Origin: Betaproteobacteria bacterium
Lineage (GTDB): Bacteria > Bdellovibrionota_B > Oligoflexia > Silvanigrellales > Silvanigrellaceae
NCBI GenBank assembly: GCA_016868315.1
Contig: VGHE01000001.1
Location: 124,001 to 188,000 of the forward strand
Length of the DNA stretch: 64,000 bases
Direction of reading: 5' to 3'
In this document: positions 40,799 through 57,552 of the stretch, piece after piece
Layout of the letters: every line of letters starts with the position of its first letter
Numbering within the stretch: position 1 is the first letter of the stretch
Notes under the pieces: model-generated
Databases searched by the model: none
What the model saw: only the letters and a program-made list of their open reading frames with translations
What the model was told of the DNA's origin: nothing
Made by a program: the position numbers and the translations under genes

Positions 40799-40974
40799 TG
40801 TGAGACTCCTCTAAAAACGACCTACCGTTATCGGAATGACAGCCAGTTTTCTTTAGTTTTTGCTTTTTCATTAGAAGTTATGACGCCTTGACGCTCAAGC
40901 CTCTGAGCCCATCGGGAAGTGCGCTATTCTTCACTGCATGATCTTCGCACGCTGCTGCGCCATGGAGTGTGGAT

Positions 40975-41757
40975 ATGGACAAGCAACATCAGTGTCCCTT
41001 TGTCAGCAAGCAGTCCTGGCGCAAAGGGCTCGTATCAGGACACCCGAGTGTTCATGTTTTGAGTCCCGGTCAGAATCCGGGAATGAGCGCATCGAATCAG
41101 TCCACGGGTTGGTTGCTTGGACTGGGCGGTGCTCATTTTGGGGAAGATCTCAGGCTTACGGAAGGTGAAACATTCATTGGCTCTGGCTGGGATTCAGACC
41201 TTGTGTTGACGACACCCGAGGTGAGTCGGCGTCATGCCAAATTCACGTCTGCCGCCGGAGTCACCCTCCTAGAAGACAACGGAAGTGCCACGGGTGTGTT
41301 TGTTAACGGTGAGAAGATTCTTGAGCCGCGCATGCTCGCACATGCAGATTTGATTCGCTTTGGCGTCGGTGAATTTCTCTATTTTTCTGCCGAACCGAAC
41401 CTGCAATCACAAGCAAATATTGAGCGATATATTGCCGTAGCGAATAAAAACTCACTCGCAACAGTCGGCTGGCTTCACTGCCTGACTGGCGAGTATTCTG
41501 GGATGGATTTTCGCTTGGTGAAAGGATTGAATCGATGCGGTTCTCTCCCTGGGGTTGAGGTTACCTTGCCAGATGCAAATTTGAACTCGACTCATATGAC
41601 CATTGAATGCAGTCCCGACAGGTTTTACCTGCGCCCCGGGTTTGCGAGTTTACAAGTCAAACGCAATGGCGTGCTCGTCGATCATCCCGGAAATCTGCGC
41701 GACTCAGATGTGTTCAAGATTGGGTCATTAGAATTGCGCCTGAGGGTCATCCGGTGA
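40975..41757 (+). CDS. Cytosolic protein with two FHA domains
   Basis: A 260-residue protein without signal or membrane segments. The first FHA domain (about 65-135) has the phosphothreonine-pocket marks GSGWDSDL, SRRH and GVFVNG. The second (about 165-255) is degenerate, retaining LNSTH where SxxH is expected and RNG for NG. FHA domains bind phosphothreonine. The ATG at 40975 has GGAG seven bases upstream; a GTG two codons before it is less likely. Its stop overlaps the start of the next gene. It is first of three overlapping FHA genes, which together look like one signalling unit. The 176-base gap upstream shows no clear promoter. Confidence 0.85.
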   Translation: MDKQHQCPFVSKQSWRKGLVSGHPSVHVLSPGQNPGMSASNQSTGWLLGLGGAHFGEDLRLTEGETFIGSGWDSDLVLTTPEVSRRHAKFTSAAGVTLLEDNGSATGVFVNGEKILEPRMLAHADLIRFGVGEFLYFSAEPNLQSQANIERYIAVANKNSLATVGWLHCLTGEYSGMDFRLVKGLNRCGSLPGVEVTLPDANLNSTHMTIECSPDRFYLRPGFASLQVKRNGVLVDHPGNLRDSDVFKIGSLELRLRVIR

Positions 41758-43283
41758 AGAAAAAATTTTTAACCTGCTTTTTGGCTTGTCTGGGAGCTTC
41801 AGTCATTGCTCCAAACGCATGGACACAGGACGTGTTGCCCACACCAAGTTCAACCCAAGCGCAAGAACTGCGTCGCAACATCTCCATCAGAGCCTATGAG
41901 ATTTTTCAGCAGCGTAAATTGCGTGTTCATCTCAGTGTCGATGAGTCGGATTCAGGTGGCCATTATTTTCTCAATACGCTTGATGCAAAATCATTTCGCC
42001 TCAAGAGTGATGACCCCAATGAGCTCCCGGTTGAACCCAGTTCGCTGAGTACATTTTCAACCCGTTCACCGACTTTGCCTCGAGAAACTGCTCTCGTATT
42101 TGAGGCGAATCAAGCGATTCCCAGCACTCAATCAGATGCAATTCGTTCTGCGGTTGCGGGATTTCTCGATCGGTTTCGTTCGGATGTGTTGACCGTACGT
42201 GCATCGGTGGGCGAGAAAGATGTCCGGCTCGCATTTATTGCGCCGGGTCAGTCGGAAAATCCACGTGCGATACAGCGTTCCATCTTGGAGTCGAAATCAC
42301 TTGTGGGTAAGGCCGGAATAGCAGCGGGCGTGTGCGCTGCGCTCGGGGAAATGCGTTCAAGCCCATCAGATAAGAGCGTTATACAAAAGACTCTCATTTT
42401 TATTTCACGTCCTGCACTCGAGAGCGATAAAAATTGGTCGGATTTAAAATCCTGCTTGTCAAAAAGTGAGGACTCCAACATTCGTTTCTTCTGGGTGCGT
42501 ATCCACGATCAGAATCCTGGCTTCGGAAAAATCGACGAAGAAATTCAGACAAAAATTGAGAAAAGTGGCGGATTCGTGAGTCGAATCAATGCCACCACAG
42601 ATCCTCTCGTTGCATTGAAGAATCTGCGTTCCTATCTCGATGACGAATACGTGCTTGAATTCGATTTGAGTCAACATCGCCCCTTCTCAGACGTGCTCAA
42701 ATTCAGAGTCACTGCAAATTATCACGGTAATCTGATTCGCAGTGAAGAAAGGGAATTTGAGGGATTTATTGCTCTCCCACGTCCCGAAGAGATCAAACGC
42801 ATCGAAGAGATTCGCGACCTCGAACGGCGTAAGGAACGGCGCACTTATCTCTTTCTCGCAGGTGTTTTGGCGACATCAGCACTGGTCATTGTTCTGCTTT
42901 TGCGTCGCAACAATGCTGGATGTTCCAAATGTGGATTTCGCGTGGCCAAGAATTATCAGGATTGCCCCTTCCGAAATCAGAAGTGTTTTGGACGCTTGAG
43001 TGTCATCCAAGGATCTCTTCAGGGTGCCGAATATCCGTTGTTTGTGGGTGAGAACACACTAGGGACAGCCATGTCCAAAACCATCCGTCTGCGTGCCAAG
43101 GGATTGGCCAGTCACCATGCAAAAATCGTCCTGACTCAGCGTAAGGCTCTATTTTCTCCAGAGAAGGGTGCAGAGTCGAGAGTCAACGGAGTGATTGCCA
43201 CCGAGCCCCGCCTGATTTCCTCTGGTACCATTTTGAGAGTGGGTACTTTGGTCTGCAGAATTGACTTCAAAGAGGGAGCATGA
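41754..43283 (+). CDS. VWA-like - TM - zinc ribbon - FHA transmembrane protein
   Basis: A 509-residue protein starting with GTG at 41754, overlapping the previous stop. Order: signal peptide (KKKFLTCFLACLGASVIAPN), an extracytoplasmic domain of about 340 residues, a membrane helix (TYLFLAGVLATSALVIVLLL), a four-Cys zinc ribbon (CSKC, then CPFRNQKC) and a C-terminal FHA domain (LASHH, RVNG). The outer domain has VWA-like alternating strands and helices (ETALVFEANQAIP; KTLIFISRP; IRFFWVRIHD), but the DxSxS metal site is missing. The topology puts VWA outside and FHA inside. Its stop overlaps the FHA-transglycosylase gene (ATGA), indicating tight coupling. Confidence 0.8.
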   Translation: MKKKFLTCFLACLGASVIAPNAWTQDVLPTPSSTQAQELRRNISIRAYEIFQQRKLRVHLSVDESDSGGHYFLNTLDAKSFRLKSDDPNELPVEPSSLSTFSTRSPTLPRETALVFEANQAIPSTQSDAIRSAVAGFLDRFRSDVLTVRASVGEKDVRLAFIAPGQSENPRAIQRSILESKSLVGKAGIAAGVCAALGEMRSSPSDKSVIQKTLIFISRPALESDKNWSDLKSCLSKSEDSNIRFFWVRIHDQNPGFGKIDEEIQTKIEKSGGFVSRINATTDPLVALKNLRSYLDDEYVLEFDLSQHRPFSDVLKFRVTANYHGNLIRSEEREFEGFIALPRPEEIKRIEEIRDLERRKERRTYLFLAGVLATSALVIVLLLRRNNAGCSKCGFRVAKNYQDCPFRNQKCFGRLSVIQGSLQGAEYPLFVGENTLGTAMSKTIRLRAKGLASHHAKIVLTQRKALFSPEKGAESRVNGVIATEPRLISSGTILRVGTLVCRIDFKEGA

Positions 43284-44494
43284 AGAGTCGATTTGTCATT
43301 CGATTTGTCGCTGGCCCTCTGCATGACAAATCCTTTGAATTGGGCGAAGGGGATCAGCGGATCCTCGGCAAAGGGGATACGGCTCAGGTGCGCCTCGATG
43401 AGGATGCTTTAGTGAGCCGGAGCCACGCGCGCTTGTCTCTTGAAAAAGGGTCGCTCTGGATTGAAGACCTAGGCAGCCGCAACGGCACTTTTATCAATGG
43501 CAAAAAGATTGAGAAGAAGACCTTGCTTCGGCCGGGCGACAAAGTCACGCTCGGGCAACTCAGTTGCTTCCAATGCTCACCCTGGAACGCACTTGAACCT
43601 TCTCGCTTTGCGAGCGTGGTTCTGACGCGAGTCACCAATGTTGCTGCGCGTATGAAGAGACGCCCCAAGGCTTCTATTTGGCCGCAGTTTTTGATGCTTC
43701 AATTTATAGTTTGTGTGGTCGTAGCTGCGGCATGGTGGGGCGGAAAGCAGCTGCGGTTGGGAGCTGCAAAATCACCCGTAGCAGAGAGTAGCCGCGAGGT
43801 CTCTGATCAAAGAGTGATGGAGAATCCGGTTCAAACTCCCCTGCGTACTGCGGTGCCCACGCCTGATGTGCCTCGAAATTTCATTTGGGATGAGATCGTT
43901 ACCATCTCCAGACGCTTTGGTGATACTCCGCCGTCGGCTATGGATTCTCAATTTCAAAAGTCGGTCGAAAGCTGGATAGAGCGCTTCACTAAAGGTGACG
44001 CTCATAAACGCATGTTCGAGCGGAAGGAAAAGTACTGGTCGACTATACAAGGCGCCCTTTCGGGAGAAGGTTTACCCGTCGAACTCGGTTACCTCGTGTG
44101 GATTGAATCAGAGTTTAATTTGGCTGCCTTGAGTCCGGTTGGGGCGCTCGGGCTATGGCAATTCATGCCCGGAACGGCGCGGGATTTTGGACTTCAGGTT
44201 GATTCGGCGCGGAAGCTGGATGAGCGCACCGATCCCGAGAAAAGCTCTCGTGCAGCAGCGCAGTATTTGTCGATGTTGCTCAAGCAATTCGGCACTGACC
44301 GATATTTGCTTGCGGTGGCTTCATATAACGCAGGTCAGAATAAAATTCGGCGCAAGGCAATTGCCGCGCAAATTCGTAGAGCACCCAAACCAGATTTCTG
44401 GGCATTGCGCGACCAATTGCCGCAGGAGACGGTCGATTACGTTCCGAAATTCCTTGCGGCGGTTATCATTAATCGCAATCCGGAACGCTGGTGA
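43280..44494 (+). CDS. FHA - TM - lytic transglycosylase fusion
   Basis: A 404-residue protein. The N-terminal FHA domain (about 25-100) is complete: GKGDTAQVRL, SRSHARLSL, GSRNGTFINGKKI. A membrane helix (about 134-152, LMLQFIVCVVVAAAWW) then leads to a Pro-rich linker and a family-1 SLT/MltD-like domain (about 240-400). Catalytic Glu lies in WIESEF, followed by GALGLWQFMPGTARDFGL and AVASYNAGQNKI. The FHA would face the cytoplasm and the SLT domain the periplasm, where it cleaves glycan strands. This arrangement suggests that phosphothreonine binding inside controls or positions wall cutting outside (inference). The 3' end overlaps the convergent methyltransferase gene by 26 bases. Confidence 0.88.
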   Translation: MKSRFVIRFVAGPLHDKSFELGEGDQRILGKGDTAQVRLDEDALVSRSHARLSLEKGSLWIEDLGSRNGTFINGKKIEKKTLLRPGDKVTLGQLSCFQCSPWNALEPSRFASVVLTRVTNVAARMKRRPKASIWPQFLMLQFIVCVVVAAAWWGGKQLRLGAAKSPVAESSREVSDQRVMENPVQTPLRTAVPTPDVPRNFIWDEIVTISRRFGDTPPSAMDSQFQKSVESWIERFTKGDAHKRMFERKEKYWSTIQGALSGEGLPVELGYLVWIESEFNLAALSPVGALGLWQFMPGTARDFGLQVDSARKLDERTDPEKSSRAAAQYLSMLLKQFGTDRYLLAVASYNAGQNKIRRKAIAAQIRRAPKPDFWALRDQLPQETVDYVPKFLAAVIINRNPERW

Positions 44495-49870: not shown

Positions 49871-52606
49871 TTATCGACAGGCACCCGCACCTTTGGTCGG
49901 TACATCTTGCCCACCGGTGCTGGGAATGACAGCTAATCCGCCTGAGACGGGCACATCATTGACGGCACTCACCATGAAAGCCGGGAAAAGCCCGAACAGG
50001 CTAATGGTTGTGCCGCTGTCTCCAGGTCCCAGGGCGTACATTCCCGAATCTCCATCGAAGCCGTCGTTCGGATAGGCTCGGCCACCAAGTTGCTCTTTGT
50101 AGCGTTGAGGATACCAGCGGGGAATTGCGGTCAAAATATTTAAATGAGCAGAGAGGCTGGGAAGAGCATCTGCGAAGACTTTGGGCGTTGGCTTTTCCGC
50201 TGCCATCCCCTGACTCACTAGAGAGCTGAAGAATTGGGAGTCCGGATCAAAGAGCGCAAGTCTTCCCATGGGTGCAAACTCATTTGCAAATCGACCCTTA
50301 TAGTATTTGAGGAAATCACGGTGAACGAGGTTAATCTCGCAAAAGGAATGAATAGCAGCCCCTCGCACAAGCGACTGTTTGTAACAGTATGCAACTTCCA
50401 CATGACCCTCGGCCAAAAGATAGGCATTAATTTCGTGTTGATATGTTTTTTCCTCAAGAGTCTTACGCGGGAGAATGAACTGTTGCAGAGATACGCTGAT
50501 GGGTCGACCAGTTTCAATCAGCTCTTTGTTAGAGAGACTCAGCTGGTTTGCTGCCGGCAAACTGTCTGAGGCAATGAAACTGATTCGTGTATCTCGCAGA
50601 AACTGGTGTAAGCCTGGTACTGTGTTCCAATCGCTAAATAAGATTTGGCTAGGCGCATTGATGCAGCGGGTCATGAGGTAGCGTGCAGCAAAATTCCGGT
50701 AGTATCGGAACGCGTCTGAGCGCGTAAAGCCCGCATTAGTGAGTCCTTGGCCTTCTCTGCTTAGATTGTTGTAAACATGACTCACATCAACTTCACCGTC
50801 AGGGAGTGTGCCTTCGGGGCTTCGCTGAACCAAAGAACACTTGAGGTCAAGTTCTGTTCCCACCGAAGTCACTTTCAAACCACTGTAGAATCTGGTTGAC
50901 TCTGGGTATTTTGCATCGAGTTCGTCGAGGATTTTCTGAGTTCGATTGAAAACACTTCTTTCATTTTGAGACAACATCTCGTAGAGCTCACCCTTCGTGA
51001 CATCGCGCAATTGAGCAATGGGCAGAAAAAGGCTCATTTTGTGATTCTCTCGATGCTTTTCTAAATTCATGATGGTGGTAGACATCGCCAAGCGAATGCT
51101 TGCTAAAACATTGAGGTGAACTTTGGCGGCATAAATGCGGTATGCTTCGCCCGCAGGCGGACAAGCGCCAATCCTCGAATCGATTTCCAAAATCGCGCTT
51201 ACGTTTTTGTTGGTCATCAAGCCATCTTTACAGAATGAATTTTCTGGGTTGTGGTCGTGATGGTAATCGAACCCTTTGAGTATGCATTCTTTCTCTTTGA
51301 GCAGAGCATTCAGTGACTTTGATATTACCAAAGACGCGAAGGGGTTACTGAAAGTGCCTTTTGCTAAATTCGGAAATAGCCTTCGGGATGCATCTTCCAC
51401 ATTGGCGATGTGATTTGCCTTGAAACTGAACTGGGAAAGTCGTTTTGATGACTGGGCGGAAATTGGCGCTGTCACCATTAAGCCTGGATACTGCTCGAGC
51501 CAAGGGGTGCATGTCGGATTAAGTTTGAGAGTATTTTGCACGAATGTCGATTTCTCGGCGTCGGGAAGAAGAATTTCAGGAACGAAAGCTCCAATTTCCG
51601 TTGCTGAGTTCGAAAAAATTCCTCGCATTTTCGCTTGCAATGCATTCGCGTCAAAGGTTTGTTTAACGTGAATTTCTTCAGTAATTGCCTTCTGTTCAGC
51701 TGAGAGTGGTTGAGTGAACTTCACTGGAACGACAACGAAGTCGGTTTGTGAAATACAGGTTTTGTTACGTCCGCTGTTGAGAAGTGCGCGCCGATAAGAA
51801 TCTTTCATGTGCTCCGAATTCTCGAAGAAATCTTTGAAAGACGGAGCATCGGTGACTGCTCTCCGATCAGATATGCCGGCAGCGTCGATTCTCTGTAAGA
51901 GTTTTTCCTGCGCTCCACAAACATCTAAACCAAGCTCGTCAAGAATCACAGATGACTTGCTGAATTCACGACCAACCACACTGCGGTACGTGTCAGACGC
52001 CAAAGCATCAATTTTTTGAAATAAATGAGTGTATATCTCTTGATGACTAATCCTGTATTCGAACTCAACAGGTTTGCCGTTGCTGTCGAATACAATAAGC
52101 TTCTGCGGCGAGGTCAGCAGCGATTTGTAGAGATGATAACGGTTGAGTGGATTGCTGAGAATGGATTTGACTGGTTCCACGCCAATGCTTGGGTTGTTTT
52201 CCACCTGTGATTTAACACGAGGATCCCAAATTCGAAAAAAGCAGTGGTTCGAAGAATGTAACTCCATAGATTCTTTGTTATTTTCAATCGAAAAGCTGAT
52301 GTTGCTGAAGTCGAGTGGCTGTGAAAAACTGCCATCAGCATTCTTTGGAAGAACATTTAGTTTGTGTAAAAGCCTTGCATTGCAGCGTGATTCAATGGTT
52401 ATTTTGCTTGAGGTTGCTTTGAAAAGCAGTATCGCTGCGGAAGGATCACGTTCCTCCCAGGGTTTAAGCTGCGATTGGGTCTCGCTGCTGTTGGCCTGAT
52501 ACACCGCATTGGTCTTGGCACAGTTACGTTGGGTCGGCCGCGACGAACCGCAGGCAACCACAAATATCATGCTTCCCAGCAGCAGACTTGTTTTGCGAAA
52601 CAACAT
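49871..52606 (-). CDS. Very large lipoprotein of unknown function
   Basis: A 911-residue protein. A signal peptide with lipobox FVVAC (Cys 19) is followed by a long mixed helix-strand region with scattered cysteines and no repeated unit that I can see. Nothing in it matches a family I know. There are many paired Asn/Ser/Lys segments and a C-terminus GGQDVPTKGAGACR. The ATG at 52606 is chosen for the lipobox position; the frame is open 32 codons farther, into the YihY gene. The gene is 48 bases upstream of the cyclase and 58 bases downstream of the YihY-type gene, same strand. Confidence 0.65.
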   Translation of the reverse strand: MLFRKTSLLLGSMIFVVACGSSRPTQRNCAKTNAVYQANSSETQSQLKPWEERDPSAAILLFKATSSKITIESRCNARLLHKLNVLPKNADGSFSQPLDFSNISFSIENNKESMELHSSNHCFFRIWDPRVKSQVENNPSIGVEPVKSILSNPLNRYHLYKSLLTSPQKLIVFDSNGKPVEFEYRISHQEIYTHLFQKIDALASDTYRSVVGREFSKSSVILDELGLDVCGAQEKLLQRIDAAGISDRRAVTDAPSFKDFFENSEHMKDSYRRALLNSGRNKTCISQTDFVVVPVKFTQPLSAEQKAITEEIHVKQTFDANALQAKMRGIFSNSATEIGAFVPEILLPDAEKSTFVQNTLKLNPTCTPWLEQYPGLMVTAPISAQSSKRLSQFSFKANHIANVEDASRRLFPNLAKGTFSNPFASLVISKSLNALLKEKECILKGFDYHHDHNPENSFCKDGLMTNKNVSAILEIDSRIGACPPAGEAYRIYAAKVHLNVLASIRLAMSTTIMNLEKHRENHKMSLFLPIAQLRDVTKGELYEMLSQNERSVFNRTQKILDELDAKYPESTRFYSGLKVTSVGTELDLKCSLVQRSPEGTLPDGEVDVSHVYNNLSREGQGLTNAGFTRSDAFRYYRNFAARYLMTRCINAPSQILFSDWNTVPGLHQFLRDTRISFIASDSLPAANQLSLSNKELIETGRPISVSLQQFILPRKTLEEKTYQHEINAYLLAEGHVEVAYCYKQSLVRGAAIHSFCEINLVHRDFLKYYKGRFANEFAPMGRLALFDPDSQFFSSLVSQGMAAEKPTPKVFADALPSLSAHLNILTAIPRWYPQRYKEQLGGRAYPNDGFDGDSGMYALGPGDSGTTISLFGLFPAFMVSAVNDVPVSGGLAVIPSTGGQDVPTKGAGACR

Positions 52607-52664
52607 ACACCGCACCCCACGGCTCAACGTGAGGTCTATCGGAGCTCGGAGTCTCAACCTTGAC

Positions 52665-53969
52665 TCAGTGATCCCTGAGGCGGAGCAAAACCCTTTGCAC
52701 ATCGGCTACTAAGAGCCCCTGGGAGGCCATGGAATTCTCGACCTGCAACTCCTCCTTCGGGATATCCATTAAATCCGACAGAAGTTTTTCCGGTGAAGAG
52801 CTGCAGCTGAGGGCCTTCATGGTTGCACTGAAGCAGCTTTTTTCCTGGAATTTCATGGGCATGACGTATCCCTTGCGCACTAGGCGCTCGTGGTGAAGCT
52901 CGGTTTCCTCTGGGGAGAGATTCAAGAGAGCGCAAATGTCTGGCTCAGTGAGTGGGTTGTCCTGCCTCCGATAGCTTTCAATATGATATTCAAGCAATCG
53001 CACGCAGTTCAAGATGGTTTCTGAGGGAAGCATCCACGGTTGTTTCTTGCTCTCGGTACTCTTGCTCTCAAGAAACTTGTCAATCGATGCGCAAAGACAA
53101 GCGCCAAAAAGAATTCCGAGCCAGACCAACCGCACCCAAATCAAGAAAACGAGCACGAGTAGGGGAAGACTGCCGTAGATTTTCAAGTTCAGGCGATTGG
53201 AGAAGACGAACGATGCATATTGCACATTGATGGCAGCAAGGAGCTGGAAGATGAGGTGGGTGACGAGTGCACCCCAAAAAACCGCGGTAAGGCGAGGCTT
53301 CTTTTCCGGCAGAACCACAAACAAAGCACCAAAGCCGGCAATTTGCACAAGGTGTCCGACAATGAAACGCAGATAGTCGAGCAGTCCGAATTGCGACAAG
53401 ATGCCCATTGACGACTGAAGCGCTGTCATCAGCTGGGAAGATTTTGCTGTGCTGAGCACAATCACAAACGGAAATGCAGAGAGCATCACCCAGTAACTGC
53501 CAATGCGGCGGATCAGCGCTCGCTTGAATTTCGTCTCGAAGATGCGGTTGAAGCTGGTCTCGATGTTCATCATGAGCGCGATGACTGTTGCAAGCAAGGT
53601 GGCAAAGGATACGGCTCCCAGGGCACCTGTTTCGAGGTTGGCAACGAACTTATCCATCAGTGTGTGGAGTTCGCTCGTAACAGAATCCGGGAAGTTTTTT
53701 GCAAGAAAAGGTTTAAGTGTTTTGTCGATAAACAAAGATAGTCCGCCAAACCACTTGAAGATCGTGAAAGCGATGGTCAGCAATGGCACCAGCGACAAGA
53801 TGAAGGTGAACGATAGTGCCTGCGAATCGGCCAAAATATTGTTACGCGCAGCTCTCTCCAACGACTGATTCAGCATGCGCGGAACCACCCACCTGAGGTC
53901 ATCAAGATGAGTCTCGGCCAATTTTGTCCGCAGCATTCTGTGCCAATGTCGGGGATGAGCGATTGCCAT
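52665..53969 (-). CDS. YihY/BrkB-family inner-membrane protein
   Basis: A 434-residue membrane protein of the YihY (formerly called RNase BN) family. Five or six hydrophobic segments fall between about 55 and 300, and the family stretch SQALSFTFILSLVPLLTIAF is near 50. The extra C-terminus of about 130 residues has a winged-helix-like pattern (LTEPDICALLNLSPEETELHHERLVRKGYV) seen in a subset of the family. Reported roles range from envelope transport to unknown; RNase activity is no longer accepted. The ATG at 53969 has GGAAG upstream; a TTG six codons earlier is less likely. Confidence 0.85.
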   Translation of the reverse strand: MAIAHPRHWHRMLRTKLAETHLDDLRWVVPRMLNQSLERAARNNILADSQALSFTFILSLVPLLTIAFTIFKWFGGLSLFIDKTLKPFLAKNFPDSVTSELHTLMDKFVANLETGALGAVSFATLLATVIALMMNIETSFNRIFETKFKRALIRRIGSYWVMLSAFPFVIVLSTAKSSQLMTALQSSMGILSQFGLLDYLRFIVGHLVQIAGFGALFVVLPEKKPRLTAVFWGALVTHLIFQLLAAINVQYASFVFSNRLNLKIYGSLPLLVLVFLIWVRLVWLGILFGACLCASIDKFLESKSTESKKQPWMLPSETILNCVRLLEYHIESYRRQDNPLTEPDICALLNLSPEETELHHERLVRKGYVMPMKFQEKSCFSATMKALSCSSSPEKLLSDLMDIPKEELQVENSMASQGLLVADVQRVLLRLRDH

Positions 53970-54162
53970 TTTCAGCTTCCATTTCAATTCATCGAGAGGT
54001 TCTCTCTTTCTTTTTAACAGCTGGTTTTTTAAGCAGCTCGGAAAAAAAGTTCGGTAATACTCCCGAGCAGCACAGAAACGTCTAAAATGTCAGATGACTG
54101 ACGCCTTGGGAGGGGTCTTGTTTCGTTAGCATAGATCGATGGCTTTTGCCTCAGGAGGGGCT

Positions 54163-57100
54163 GTGTTCAAAGGTAAAATACGAGTTGTGCTGAAGTGGTT
54201 CGGGTGGAGTCTGGCGGGAGTCGTCGGGTTACTCGTGGCAGTTTTTTTTGCCATCAGAACCCCATTTGTACTGAGCAGACTCCTTCCTCCTGTTCAGAAA
54301 GTTCTCGAGCGCGATTTTAATTTGAAGACAAAAATTTCCCAGCTCGCAATCGACCCTTTTGCCCGAGTTTCACTCGGAGGTGTTGAGGCACAATGGGCAG
54401 ATCCGGAATTGGGTCAGGCAGAGGTCAAGGTTGAAAACCTGCTCATTCGTTTTTCATTTTGGGAAATTCTCAATCGACGCCTTCAGGTTTCACAGATAGA
54501 GGTCAACAACCCGCAAATCAAAGCTCAGCTGAAACTCAACGACACCCAAGAGGTCAAACCACCAGAAAATCCATTGGCGCTCTTGCGTAAGTTGGTAACC
54601 GAACCACCAGTGGCACTGAACGTCGACTCCGTGCGCATTAAGGGAATGAAACTCGACCTGTCGCTGAGGCAGGGCGCAAAAAATATTCAGTTTGCAGCAG
54701 AGCCCTTGTTTCTCGACACCGAACTGCATGTGGTTCCGAAAAAGATTGAGGCAGCGTTGAGTGTCTCACTGGGTTCATCTGAAATCGTTTCTCAGAGCAG
54801 GGGGACTATCCGCTTCAATGCAACAAATCTTGCACCAGTCGTACCTTCGTTGGCACTCGAGCTCCCGGTGTCGACTGGTTTTGCGACCCGAGTGGTTCTT
54901 TCTTTCGAAGAACCAAAAAGTCCATTCGTCGCGCTGGGTGATTTGAAGTTTGCTCTTGCGGGTGAAAAGATTCAGTTGAACAGCCGACTCGAGAAGGCAG
55001 GCCAGTTCAAACTTGAAGCAGGTAAAATTGACTTGAATGTTACGAAGCCTGAAGAGACGCGCCTGGCTCTCGCTCAGATTTTCGCCTTGGAGGCCGAGAG
55101 TGGAGAGGCTTTTGTCAAAAAAGTTCCCGAGTCAGTGTTTCATTCTCTCGCAGATTTGACGCTGTCGCTGCGCAATAAAGTGGAACTTGAGCGCATTAAA
55201 GTTAATGCTCGGTTGCCGTCTGAAGGTATCGATGCTGGCTTGAGTTTCAGTATGAGTGCGCCGGTAGATTTCTCACTGGGTGAAAAAAGCCTTGAGCTTA
55301 ACTCTACCGACAATCCGATCACTCTTTCAGTTTCGGATATTCGGCTTCAAGGAAAAGCATTTGCAGCGCTCAATCAGCAGATTAAATTGCAGCAGCTTGC
55401 AGGAACGCGTATTGAAACTCCACTTCGCCTCAGTCTAGCCGCCCCACAATATGCACGTTTGAAGAAGCCGCTTGAAGGTGTTCGTCTTGAAGAACTGTTC
55501 ATCGAGCCCAAACTTGTTCTTGGAGTTAACAACCCACAGTTTCTGAAGGCCCGAGTCGATGTTGCTCAACTCCCCAGTGGTGAGTTCAAGCTCAACACAG
55601 GAGCATCGGTGGTTTTGAAAGACTATCTCTTGAAACTGATACCGCAGCTGAAGCCTCTGCCAGAGAATGTGGGGTGGCTCGATCTCAATGCAGACGTCGC
55701 AATGAAAATCATGACCCCCTGGGTTGATTTGCAAAAGCTTGTCGATGCAGCTGGCAAAGAGCCTCGAAGCCTTGAAATTAAATATGCAATCGACTTGAAC
55801 CAGACCAGTCTTCCCCCCAAAGGTTCACCGACTGCACTTCAGCTGGCTGGAGGGATTCAGATACGAGGCGATGCGAAGGTTAATGCTCCTGTGGAGCTGA
55901 GGTCAGCGCAGGTCAACACACAAATCGATTGGAACAAACAGCCCCTGTTGAATAATAAAATGGCCATTGAGAATGCCGTTGGAAAACTTGGTGTGCGCGG
56001 AGAAACACATGTTCATGCTCTTCTCCGTTTGCGCAAGCTCACTCCCTTGGCTGATGCACTGGGTATGCTCGGTGGCACGAAAATTAATCTCAATTGGTCT
56101 GTTCAGCTTCCCCATGGTGCGAAGAGCATACTGGTTGCTCAGTTGCCACCACCACTGCTCCTCAATGCCGACGTGGGTGTGACTGCATCTGTTCAGCCTG
56201 TTGAAAGGCCGGCGAAGTCTTTGTTTGAAGATCATTTTCTGCTCTTGGATGGGCCAGTCACCGCTGGAGTCACTGCAACTTTGCGCAGGGGGCTGGCCAA
56301 GGTTTCAGTAAAATACGCACTGCCGCGTGTAGGCACAGCAAAGCTGGCCGTCGTCGACAAACTGAGCGGTCAGGTGAATCTCGAGGCACGCACGGATTTG
56401 AGCACAGGTGTGAACGCAACAGTCGAAGCTAATCTGCAAGAGCTGGCACCTGCAAAGTCGTTTGAGCTTCCTCAAGACGTCGCTCCTTATCTGAAGGTTA
56501 TAGCGGCTAAGCTGAAACTGAAAACCGACATTAAGAATCGGGTTGACCTCGAGAGAGTTGATGTGAGCGCTGGCTCTGGAAAGTTCATTGCTAGCCTGAA
56601 GGGCGGAACTGACCTCAAAGCCACCAACAGCCGCTTCGATGGTCAACTTATGGTGCGGCCTCCTGAGTTGTTTCGTTACGGAATTCGTGCACAAGATAGA
56701 GTTAATTTGGATGGTTTGATACGTGTGAACTGGGAACTCACTCAGAAGGAGCAGAAGTCGCTACGTTTGCGTGGCAACGTGAACCTCGACAATTTCTCTG
56801 CACAACACAAGCTCGGAGGCTTACGCCGGGTGTCGGGGCGCATTCCCTTCCAACAGGATCTTGAATTGCCCAATTTTAAGAGCCTGCGCTGGGCCTATTT
56901 AATTCGTGACAATCCGTTCAAGCGTGTCGATACATCGAAATTCGTTCCGCTGACCCTGGATGACTCGCTTCTGACTGTCGTTGAAGTGAATGCCATAGAG
57001 AGAAAGTTCGGCCCCTTACGTGCACGCGTCTCTTTGTTGCAGAACATGCTGACCATCGACAAATTGGATGCTGATATTTTCGAAGGAGTGCTGGCTGGCC

Positions 57101-57552
57101 AGGGATTTATTGATATCCAGCCGTCTCGATTTGTTGCCGGTCTGCAGGGACGGGTGACTAAACTCAATACTGCACTTCTTTCCAGCAAGCCTGAAAAAAT
57201 GGCTGCAGCACCTCTCAGCGCGCGGCTTGCTCTCATTCTTGATTTGTCAAAGGCACTGATTGAAGGGCGGGCGGATGTGACCGAAATTGGAAAGAATCAG
57301 CTTCTCGCGCTCATCGATGTCTTGGACCCTTCCGGTGCAGATTCCCTCTTGAATAAAGCGCGCCTCGCATTGTCGGTCGGATACCCGCGCTCTCTGGGCA
57401 TGCAGATGCAGCAGGGTCTCTTGGATCTGGATATCGGACTTGGCGGTGTGCTTGAGCAGCAGTTTAAAATCAGTAATCTTCCTCTCACTCCAATTGTTAA
57501 TGCGAAAACACAAGATTTGGTCAAAACGATTCGTGAGGTACCTATTCAATGA
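54163..57552 (+). CDS. Large AsmA/YdbH-like protein with periplasmic barrel domain
   Basis: A 1129-residue protein with one N-terminal membrane helix (about 12-34, WFGWSLAGVVGLLVAVFFAI) and a very long, strand-rich extracytoplasmic part. The start of the mature region (LLPPVQKVLERDFNLKTKISQLAIDPF) is typical of AsmA-like proteins, and the C-terminal 150 residues resemble the dicarboxylate-binding-like/YdbH end. Proteins of this group (YhdP, TamB, YdbH) are thought to bridge phospholipid flow between membranes. The start is GTG with AGGAGG four bases upstream; an ATG at 54139 has none. It overlaps a tiny lipoprotein gene (ATGA), as ydbH precedes ynbE in E. coli. Confidence 0.8.
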   Translation: MFKGKIRVVLKWFGWSLAGVVGLLVAVFFAIRTPFVLSRLLPPVQKVLERDFNLKTKISQLAIDPFARVSLGGVEAQWADPELGQAEVKVENLLIRFSFWEILNRRLQVSQIEVNNPQIKAQLKLNDTQEVKPPENPLALLRKLVTEPPVALNVDSVRIKGMKLDLSLRQGAKNIQFAAEPLFLDTELHVVPKKIEAALSVSLGSSEIVSQSRGTIRFNATNLAPVVPSLALELPVSTGFATRVVLSFEEPKSPFVALGDLKFALAGEKIQLNSRLEKAGQFKLEAGKIDLNVTKPEETRLALAQIFALEAESGEAFVKKVPESVFHSLADLTLSLRNKVELERIKVNARLPSEGIDAGLSFSMSAPVDFSLGEKSLELNSTDNPITLSVSDIRLQGKAFAALNQQIKLQQLAGTRIETPLRLSLAAPQYARLKKPLEGVRLEELFIEPKLVLGVNNPQFLKARVDVAQLPSGEFKLNTGASVVLKDYLLKLIPQLKPLPENVGWLDLNADVAMKIMTPWVDLQKLVDAAGKEPRSLEIKYAIDLNQTSLPPKGSPTALQLAGGIQIRGDAKVNAPVELRSAQVNTQIDWNKQPLLNNKMAIENAVGKLGVRGETHVHALLRLRKLTPLADALGMLGGTKINLNWSVQLPHGAKSILVAQLPPPLLLNADVGVTASVQPVERPAKSLFEDHFLLLDGPVTAGVTATLRRGLAKVSVKYALPRVGTAKLAVVDKLSGQVNLEARTDLSTGVNATVEANLQELAPAKSFELPQDVAPYLKVIAAKLKLKTDIKNRVDLERVDVSAGSGKFIASLKGGTDLKATNSRFDGQLMVRPPELFRYGIRAQDRVNLDGLIRVNWELTQKEQKSLRLRGNVNLDNFSAQHKLGGLRRVSGRIPFQQDLELPNFKSLRWAYLIRDNPFKRVDTSKFVPLTLDDSLLTVVEVNAIERKFGPLRARVSLLQNMLTIDKLDADIFEGVLAGQGFIDIQPSRFVAGLQGRVTKLNTALLSSKPEKMAAAPLSARLALILDLSKALIEGRADVTEIGKNQLLALIDVLDPSGADSLLNKARLALSVGYPRSLGMQMQQGLLDLDIGLGGVLEQQFKISNLPLTPIVNAKTQDLVKTIREVPIQ

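Follow-up and report, generated by a model that had tools for sequence, protein, structure and literature searches.

The protein encoded by gene 3 at positions 43280-44494 (forward strand) of the window, the 64,000-nucleotide stretch of DNA analysed here, looks like part of a three-protein envelope complex, because it is always encoded together with two other FHA proteins. We consider it about an even call that this 404-residue protein, in which an FHA domain is joined through a membrane helix to a lytic transglycosylase, serves an FHA-scaffolded inner-membrane module as its periplasm-cutting subunit, in a complex whose FHA docking proceeds mostly without phosphothreonine. The operon is the main clue to function, and was absent from an earlier, sequence-only reading of gene 3. 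The trio is a real, conserved, and apparently undescribed combination of known parts: no description of an FHA–lytic transglycosylase fusion or of an FHA/VWA/transglycosylase trio was found in literature that was in part judged by title or the start of the abstract. Cytoplasmic steering of periplasmic glycan-cutting enzymes is a standing question, for which the trio offers a small and testable system, and the three-gene module is more interesting than the phosphothreonine binding originally proposed for gene 3.

Domain architecture and predicted topology of gene 3

The reading frame of gene 3 is uninterrupted over 404 codons, and Pfam recognizes an FHA domain at residues 29-92 (PF00498, E 3.6e-17) followed by an SLT domain at residues 265-360 (PF01464, E 5.1e-25). 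An AlphaFold model built from a 9-sequence alignment (mean pLDDT 78, enzyme domain confident) comprises an FHA beta-sandwich at residues 4-101, a long helix at 134-162, a disordered linker at 161-197, and the enzyme domain at 201-404. The FHA domain (43289-43582, forward strand) is predicted to be cytoplasmic, as the only hydrophobic segment of the protein (residues 133-151, 43676-43732, forward strand; KD 2.07) is preceded by the flank RMKRRPK with a charge of +5, indicating an N-in orientation. A single hydrophobic segment occurs at the equivalent place in all nine aligned gene 3 members, i.e. the window copy and eight relatives. Taken together, the domain, flank charge, structure-model, and family evidence supports a predicted topology of cytoplasmic FHA domain, membrane helix, and periplasmic transglycosylase, which upholds both the domain order and the membrane-spanning helix suggested by the sequence-only reading. 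Its presence at 11 complete loci within the class rules out a chance origin for this architecture.

The MltD-type lytic transglycosylase domain (43955-44491, forward strand) was assigned from Pfam, structural match, and motifs. Its catalytic Glu276 (44105-44107), already noted from the sequence, lies within a WIES motif that aligns with the ES motif of Pseudomonas aeruginosa MltD, and is accompanied by GLWQ, SYNAG, and DYVPK motifs; 9/9 members retain the catalytic Glu together with the motifs GxWQ, YN, and DYVPK/EYVPK. The modelled enzyme domain matches P. aeruginosa MltD (8rhe) with a Z of 18.9 over 180 residues at 2.8 A and 34% identity. By its fold, catalytic Glu, and GxWQ/YN/YVPK motifs, gene 3 is thus predicted to encode a family 1 SLT enzyme. 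The catalytic domain and the ES/GxWQ/YN/YVPK motifs are common to gene 3 and to MltD of Escherichia coli and P. aeruginosa. MltD is a lipoprotein with C-terminal LysM domains (LysM being named in the title of entry 8rhf), and has neither an FHA domain nor a membrane helix. For gene 3, no LysM domain was detected with Pfam, the protein ends about 14-19 residues past the last motif, and its score against the whole-protein NCBIfam model PRK10783 (93.6 bits) falls below the cut-off of 508 bits, so that we classify it as carrying an MltD-type catalytic domain rather than as an MltD orthologue.

The gene 3 family also differs from MltD in an expanded FIWDEI...RRFGDxPPSxMD segment. This segment, FIWDEIVTISRRFGDTPPSAMD, located directly 5' of the enzyme domain (43880-43945, forward strand; consensus FIWDEIVxISRRFGDxPPSAMD), shows the strongest conservation within the family: invariant positions make up 50% of residues 198-225, against 31% in the enzyme domain and 15% in the FHA domain. 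It may represent a putative partner-docking or gating element. The linker itself is variable among relatives. With synonymous sites saturated, divergence was assessed by dN alone, which is ~2.5 to 3.5 times higher in the membrane helix and linker than in the FHA and enzyme domains, where it is low.

A conserved trio of FHA proteins

Gene 1 (40969-41757, forward strand; GTG start, with an ATG at 40975 possible) encodes a soluble double-FHA protein of 262 residues, in which PF00498 is detected over two stretches (E 2.2e-21) and a hydrophobicity scan found no transmembrane segment. Its N-terminal tail carries a conserved [SC]xxQ[NS] motif ahead of the first FHA domain (41060-41080), possibly a docking peptide. 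Gene 2 (41754-43283, forward strand; GTG start) is predicted to encode a signal peptide, a periplasmic beta-sandwich and VWA-fold domain, a transmembrane helix, a Cys4 zinc ribbon, and a C-terminal FHA domain, a layout taken from a predicted model (pLDDT 80). Both junctions in the window are 4-nt overlaps, GTGA between genes 1 and 2 and ATGA between genes 2 and 3.

The VWA-fold domain of gene 2 (42075-42650, forward strand) matches 4fx5 with a Z of 18.9 over 177 residues at 2.6 A; this assignment rests on the model, since Pfam detects VWA in only 1/11 members. VWA is commonly a protein-binding fold, and the DxSxS MIDAS motif at its first strand is absent from every gene 2 member. The membrane helix (42846-42902, forward strand; KD 2.56, C-terminal flank +4) is oriented N-out/C-in by charge, so that the predicted topology of gene 2 is the mirror image of that of gene 3. 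On its cytoplasmic side, alignment revealed a CxxC...C...C zinc-ribbon-like motif (42921-42992, forward strand), lost in the operon B copies, and a degenerate FHA domain (42984-43268, forward strand) was identified from a Yop-YscD_cpl match (E 4e-4) and the model.

The gene order 1-2-3 is identical in 11 complete loci, in which the genes are mostly separated by 4-nt overlaps or gaps of <20 nt. At one locus (L043, 4936-7787), gene 2 is separated from gene 3 by three inserted ORFs, including one encoding a subtilase-family protease. Among the 58 genomes of the class, those with a full-length gene 2 are exactly the eight with a complete gene 3, while the extra gene 3 of a ninth genome is a contig-end fragment. 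A second complete, diverged trio is encoded in the same genome as the window (contig C9, 86462-90047; L009 4463-8048), with a gene 2 that lacks the zinc-ribbon cysteines. The trio is duplicated in both other species of this genus as well, and present in single copies in a second family (f4). Synteny around the trio is conserved on the chromosome within the genus of the window, and outside this genus the flanking genes vary while the trio persists. A mobile element or phage origin was rejected given this conserved chromosomal synteny, the lack of any relative in viral contigs, and the lack of any plasmid site covering at least 80% of the query.

A scan of ~85,000 species, based on motifs from the gene 3 enzyme's own clade and hence liable to miss independent FHA–SLT fusions elsewhere, identified ten loci encoding gene 3 relatives, in metagenome-assembled genomes labelled Silvanigrella, Oligoflexales, Pseudobacteriovorax, Bdellovibrio sp. 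ZAP7, or simply Proteobacteria. Within the reach of this own-clade motif scan, the trio was found only in Oligoflexia-like bacteria, a little-known freshwater group. Phylogenetic trees separate all gene 3 members from MltD-like enzymes as a single clade (support 92/97, long branches being flagged) that is composed of four deep lineages. Copies A and B from the genus of the window constitute two of these lineages, which suggests that a duplication or a transfer took place long ago. Elsewhere in the window, two large ORFs (54139-57552, 1137 aa, and 49871-52702, 943 aa) are without a Pfam match at E 0.001.

In the proposed FHA-scaffolded module, the membrane helix and N-terminal FHA domain of gene 3 would keep the enzyme at the inner membrane, with the transglycosylase domain facing the periplasm on a flexible linker, as computed from topology and structure predictions. 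FHA domains from across the trio would then dock mutually or to a common cytoplasmic partner, mostly without phosphothreonine, and this docking may cluster the enzyme beside the periplasmic VWA domain. Peptidoglycan would hence be opened only at the complex, either for local wall remodelling or for the passage of an envelope structure. Supporting this module are the constant gene order, the co-occurrence of genes 2 and 3, and the presence of invariant catalytic residues alongside degenerate FHA pockets. A more specific possibility, which we put forward tentatively, is that the trio constitutes an undescribed Oligoflexia envelope machine in which a platform of degenerate FHA domains couples a metal-independent VWA domain to a transglycosylase across the inner membrane; if true, wall cutting would be placed under cytoplasmic direction.

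Degenerate FHA pockets and phosphothreonine binding

Before a wall enzyme with an FHA domain is considered a phosphothreonine reader, the pocket of that domain should be checked. The fold itself is confirmed by a match of the gene 3 domain to Chlamydia CT664/CdsD (3gqs; Z 18.4, 98 residues, 1.2 A). The sequence-only reading had credited this domain with the full Gly-Arg/Ser-x-x-His/Asn-Gly pattern, of which Ser46, His49, and Asn68-Gly69 are indeed retained in the window copy, but the Gly-Arg pair is not: the residue after Gly30 is Lys31 (codon AAA, 43370-43372), yielding a K/S/N pocket. Among the nine aligned gene 3 members, Arg is never found at this position, which is occupied by Lys in three (the operon-A copies of the genus of the window) and by Ser in six. 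Four members retain Asn68, whereas the other five, which are the f4 members, do not, and three of these f4 members are without Ser46 as well. Gly30, His49, and Gly69, which are structural residues, do not vary. When comparing the gene 3 FHA domains with the first FHA domain of gene 1 and the FHA domain of gene 2 (excluding the gene 1 row of L049), none of the 30 aligned domains displayed the full Arg/Ser/Asn triad. This degeneracy is specific to the gene set rather than a trait of the organism, since the triad is intact in 3/4 FHA domains encoded by other, unrelated genes of the same genome. In gene 3, selection has preserved the enzyme along with the FHA fold, and not the phosphothreonine pocket.

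The principal alternative is that the FHA domain of gene 3 reads phosphothreonine made by Ser/Thr kinases, and thereby controls or localizes the periplasmic transglycosylase. This model stays a rival for the K/S/N window copy because the genome encodes several Ser/Thr kinases (at least five kinase domains above the Pfam cut-off), and phosphothreonine binding is possible for this copy, judging from the basic Lys31 along with Ser46 and Asn68. A precedent of another form is MltG of Enterococcus faecalis, the cytoplasmic part of which is phosphorylated by IreK, with Thr20 required and the effect on activity left unclear (PMC12369325); it shows that phosphorylating a membrane transglycosylase on its cytoplasmic side can have physiological consequences. 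MltG/YceG resembles gene 3 in its N-in topology, its single membrane helix, and the external position of its glycan-cleaving domain, but belongs to the YceG catalytic family, and its cytoplasmic part is predicted to be disordered and is a kinase substrate instead of an FHA domain. Given the absence of Arg from all nine gene 3 members, the losses of Asn and Ser across the family, and the fact that no kinase or phosphatase gene was recognized beside the trio, either in the window or at the other inspected loci, we regard phosphothreonine control as rather unlikely. The earlier proposal of phosphothreonine binding and glycan cleavage on one polypeptide thus holds for the topology, while its binding component, as written, was overstated.

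Docking mostly without phosphothreonine, within an FHA-scaffolded module, leads instead because of a precedent in the SctD family: the pocket residues of PrgH are poorly conserved and mutating them has no effect on secretion, yet assembly requires the FHA domain (PMC3635987). Matches to SctD/CdsD-type and other FHA folds were obtained for the FHA domains of every protein in the trio. Counting against the module are the K/S/N pocket of the window copy, which leaves phosphothreonine binding possible, and the fact that we infer the interaction within the trio and predict the enzyme activity from sequence.

Comparison with trans-envelope machines and other FHA proteins

Dedicated transglycosylases accompany large trans-envelope machines, and the trio could similarly be an accessory that opens the wall for a flagellum, pilus, gliding motor, or secretion system. 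The FHA–membrane helix–periplasm plan of gene 3 resembles that of the type III secretion protein SctD, and the FHIPEP export-gate family is detected in all nine operon-bearing genomes, genomes without FHIPEP being all without the operon. This link is weak, however, as 36 of the 47 genomes that lack the operon also encode FHIPEP. In addition, the sole FHIPEP gene in the genome sits among flagellar-like genes (FlhB-, FlhF-, and FlhG-like neighbours recognized by sequence reading), which indicates that there is no separate type III secretion gate, with the proviso that a second export-gate gene may have been missed in an assembly that is 94.8% complete. The type VI secretion gene VipB is absent from all operon-bearing genomes, and no machine genes were recognized beside any copy of the trio. 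We therefore consider an accessory role for such a machine improbable.

Membership in specific families of machine components was rejected along the same lines. For SctD (TIGR02500, cut-off 86), gene 1 reached 34.2 bits and gene 2 20.5 bits, with no match listed for gene 3, and for TagH of type VI secretion, membership was ruled out by the absence of VipB from all operon-bearing genomes. Members of the SctD family (YscD, PrgH, MxiG, and Chlamydia CdsD) share with gene 3 a degenerate cytoplasmic FHA domain, one membrane helix, and a periplasmic domain, and the gene 3 FHA domain also matches the SctD-type PF16697. Unlike gene 3, the periplasmic part of which is an enzyme, SctD proteins carry ring-building domains, and the genome is without a second export-gate gene. 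The mycobacterial proteins FhaA and FhaB/FipA are other cases of FHA domains linked to cell-wall control. These have no transglycosylase domain, and gene 3 falls far below the cut-off of NF049868, its best FHA equivalog model (62 vs 125 bits). Finally, a purely structural protein, in which the enzyme domain is a mere peptidoglycan anchor, would fit the lack of MltD's LysM tails and the short C-terminal end, but is hardly credible given the catalytic Glu and accompanying motifs retained in every aligned member.

The 3' end of gene 3 shares 26 nt (44469-44494) with a convergent Rsm22-like methyltransferase gene, an overlap that is equal in length in two relatives (L042 and L043).
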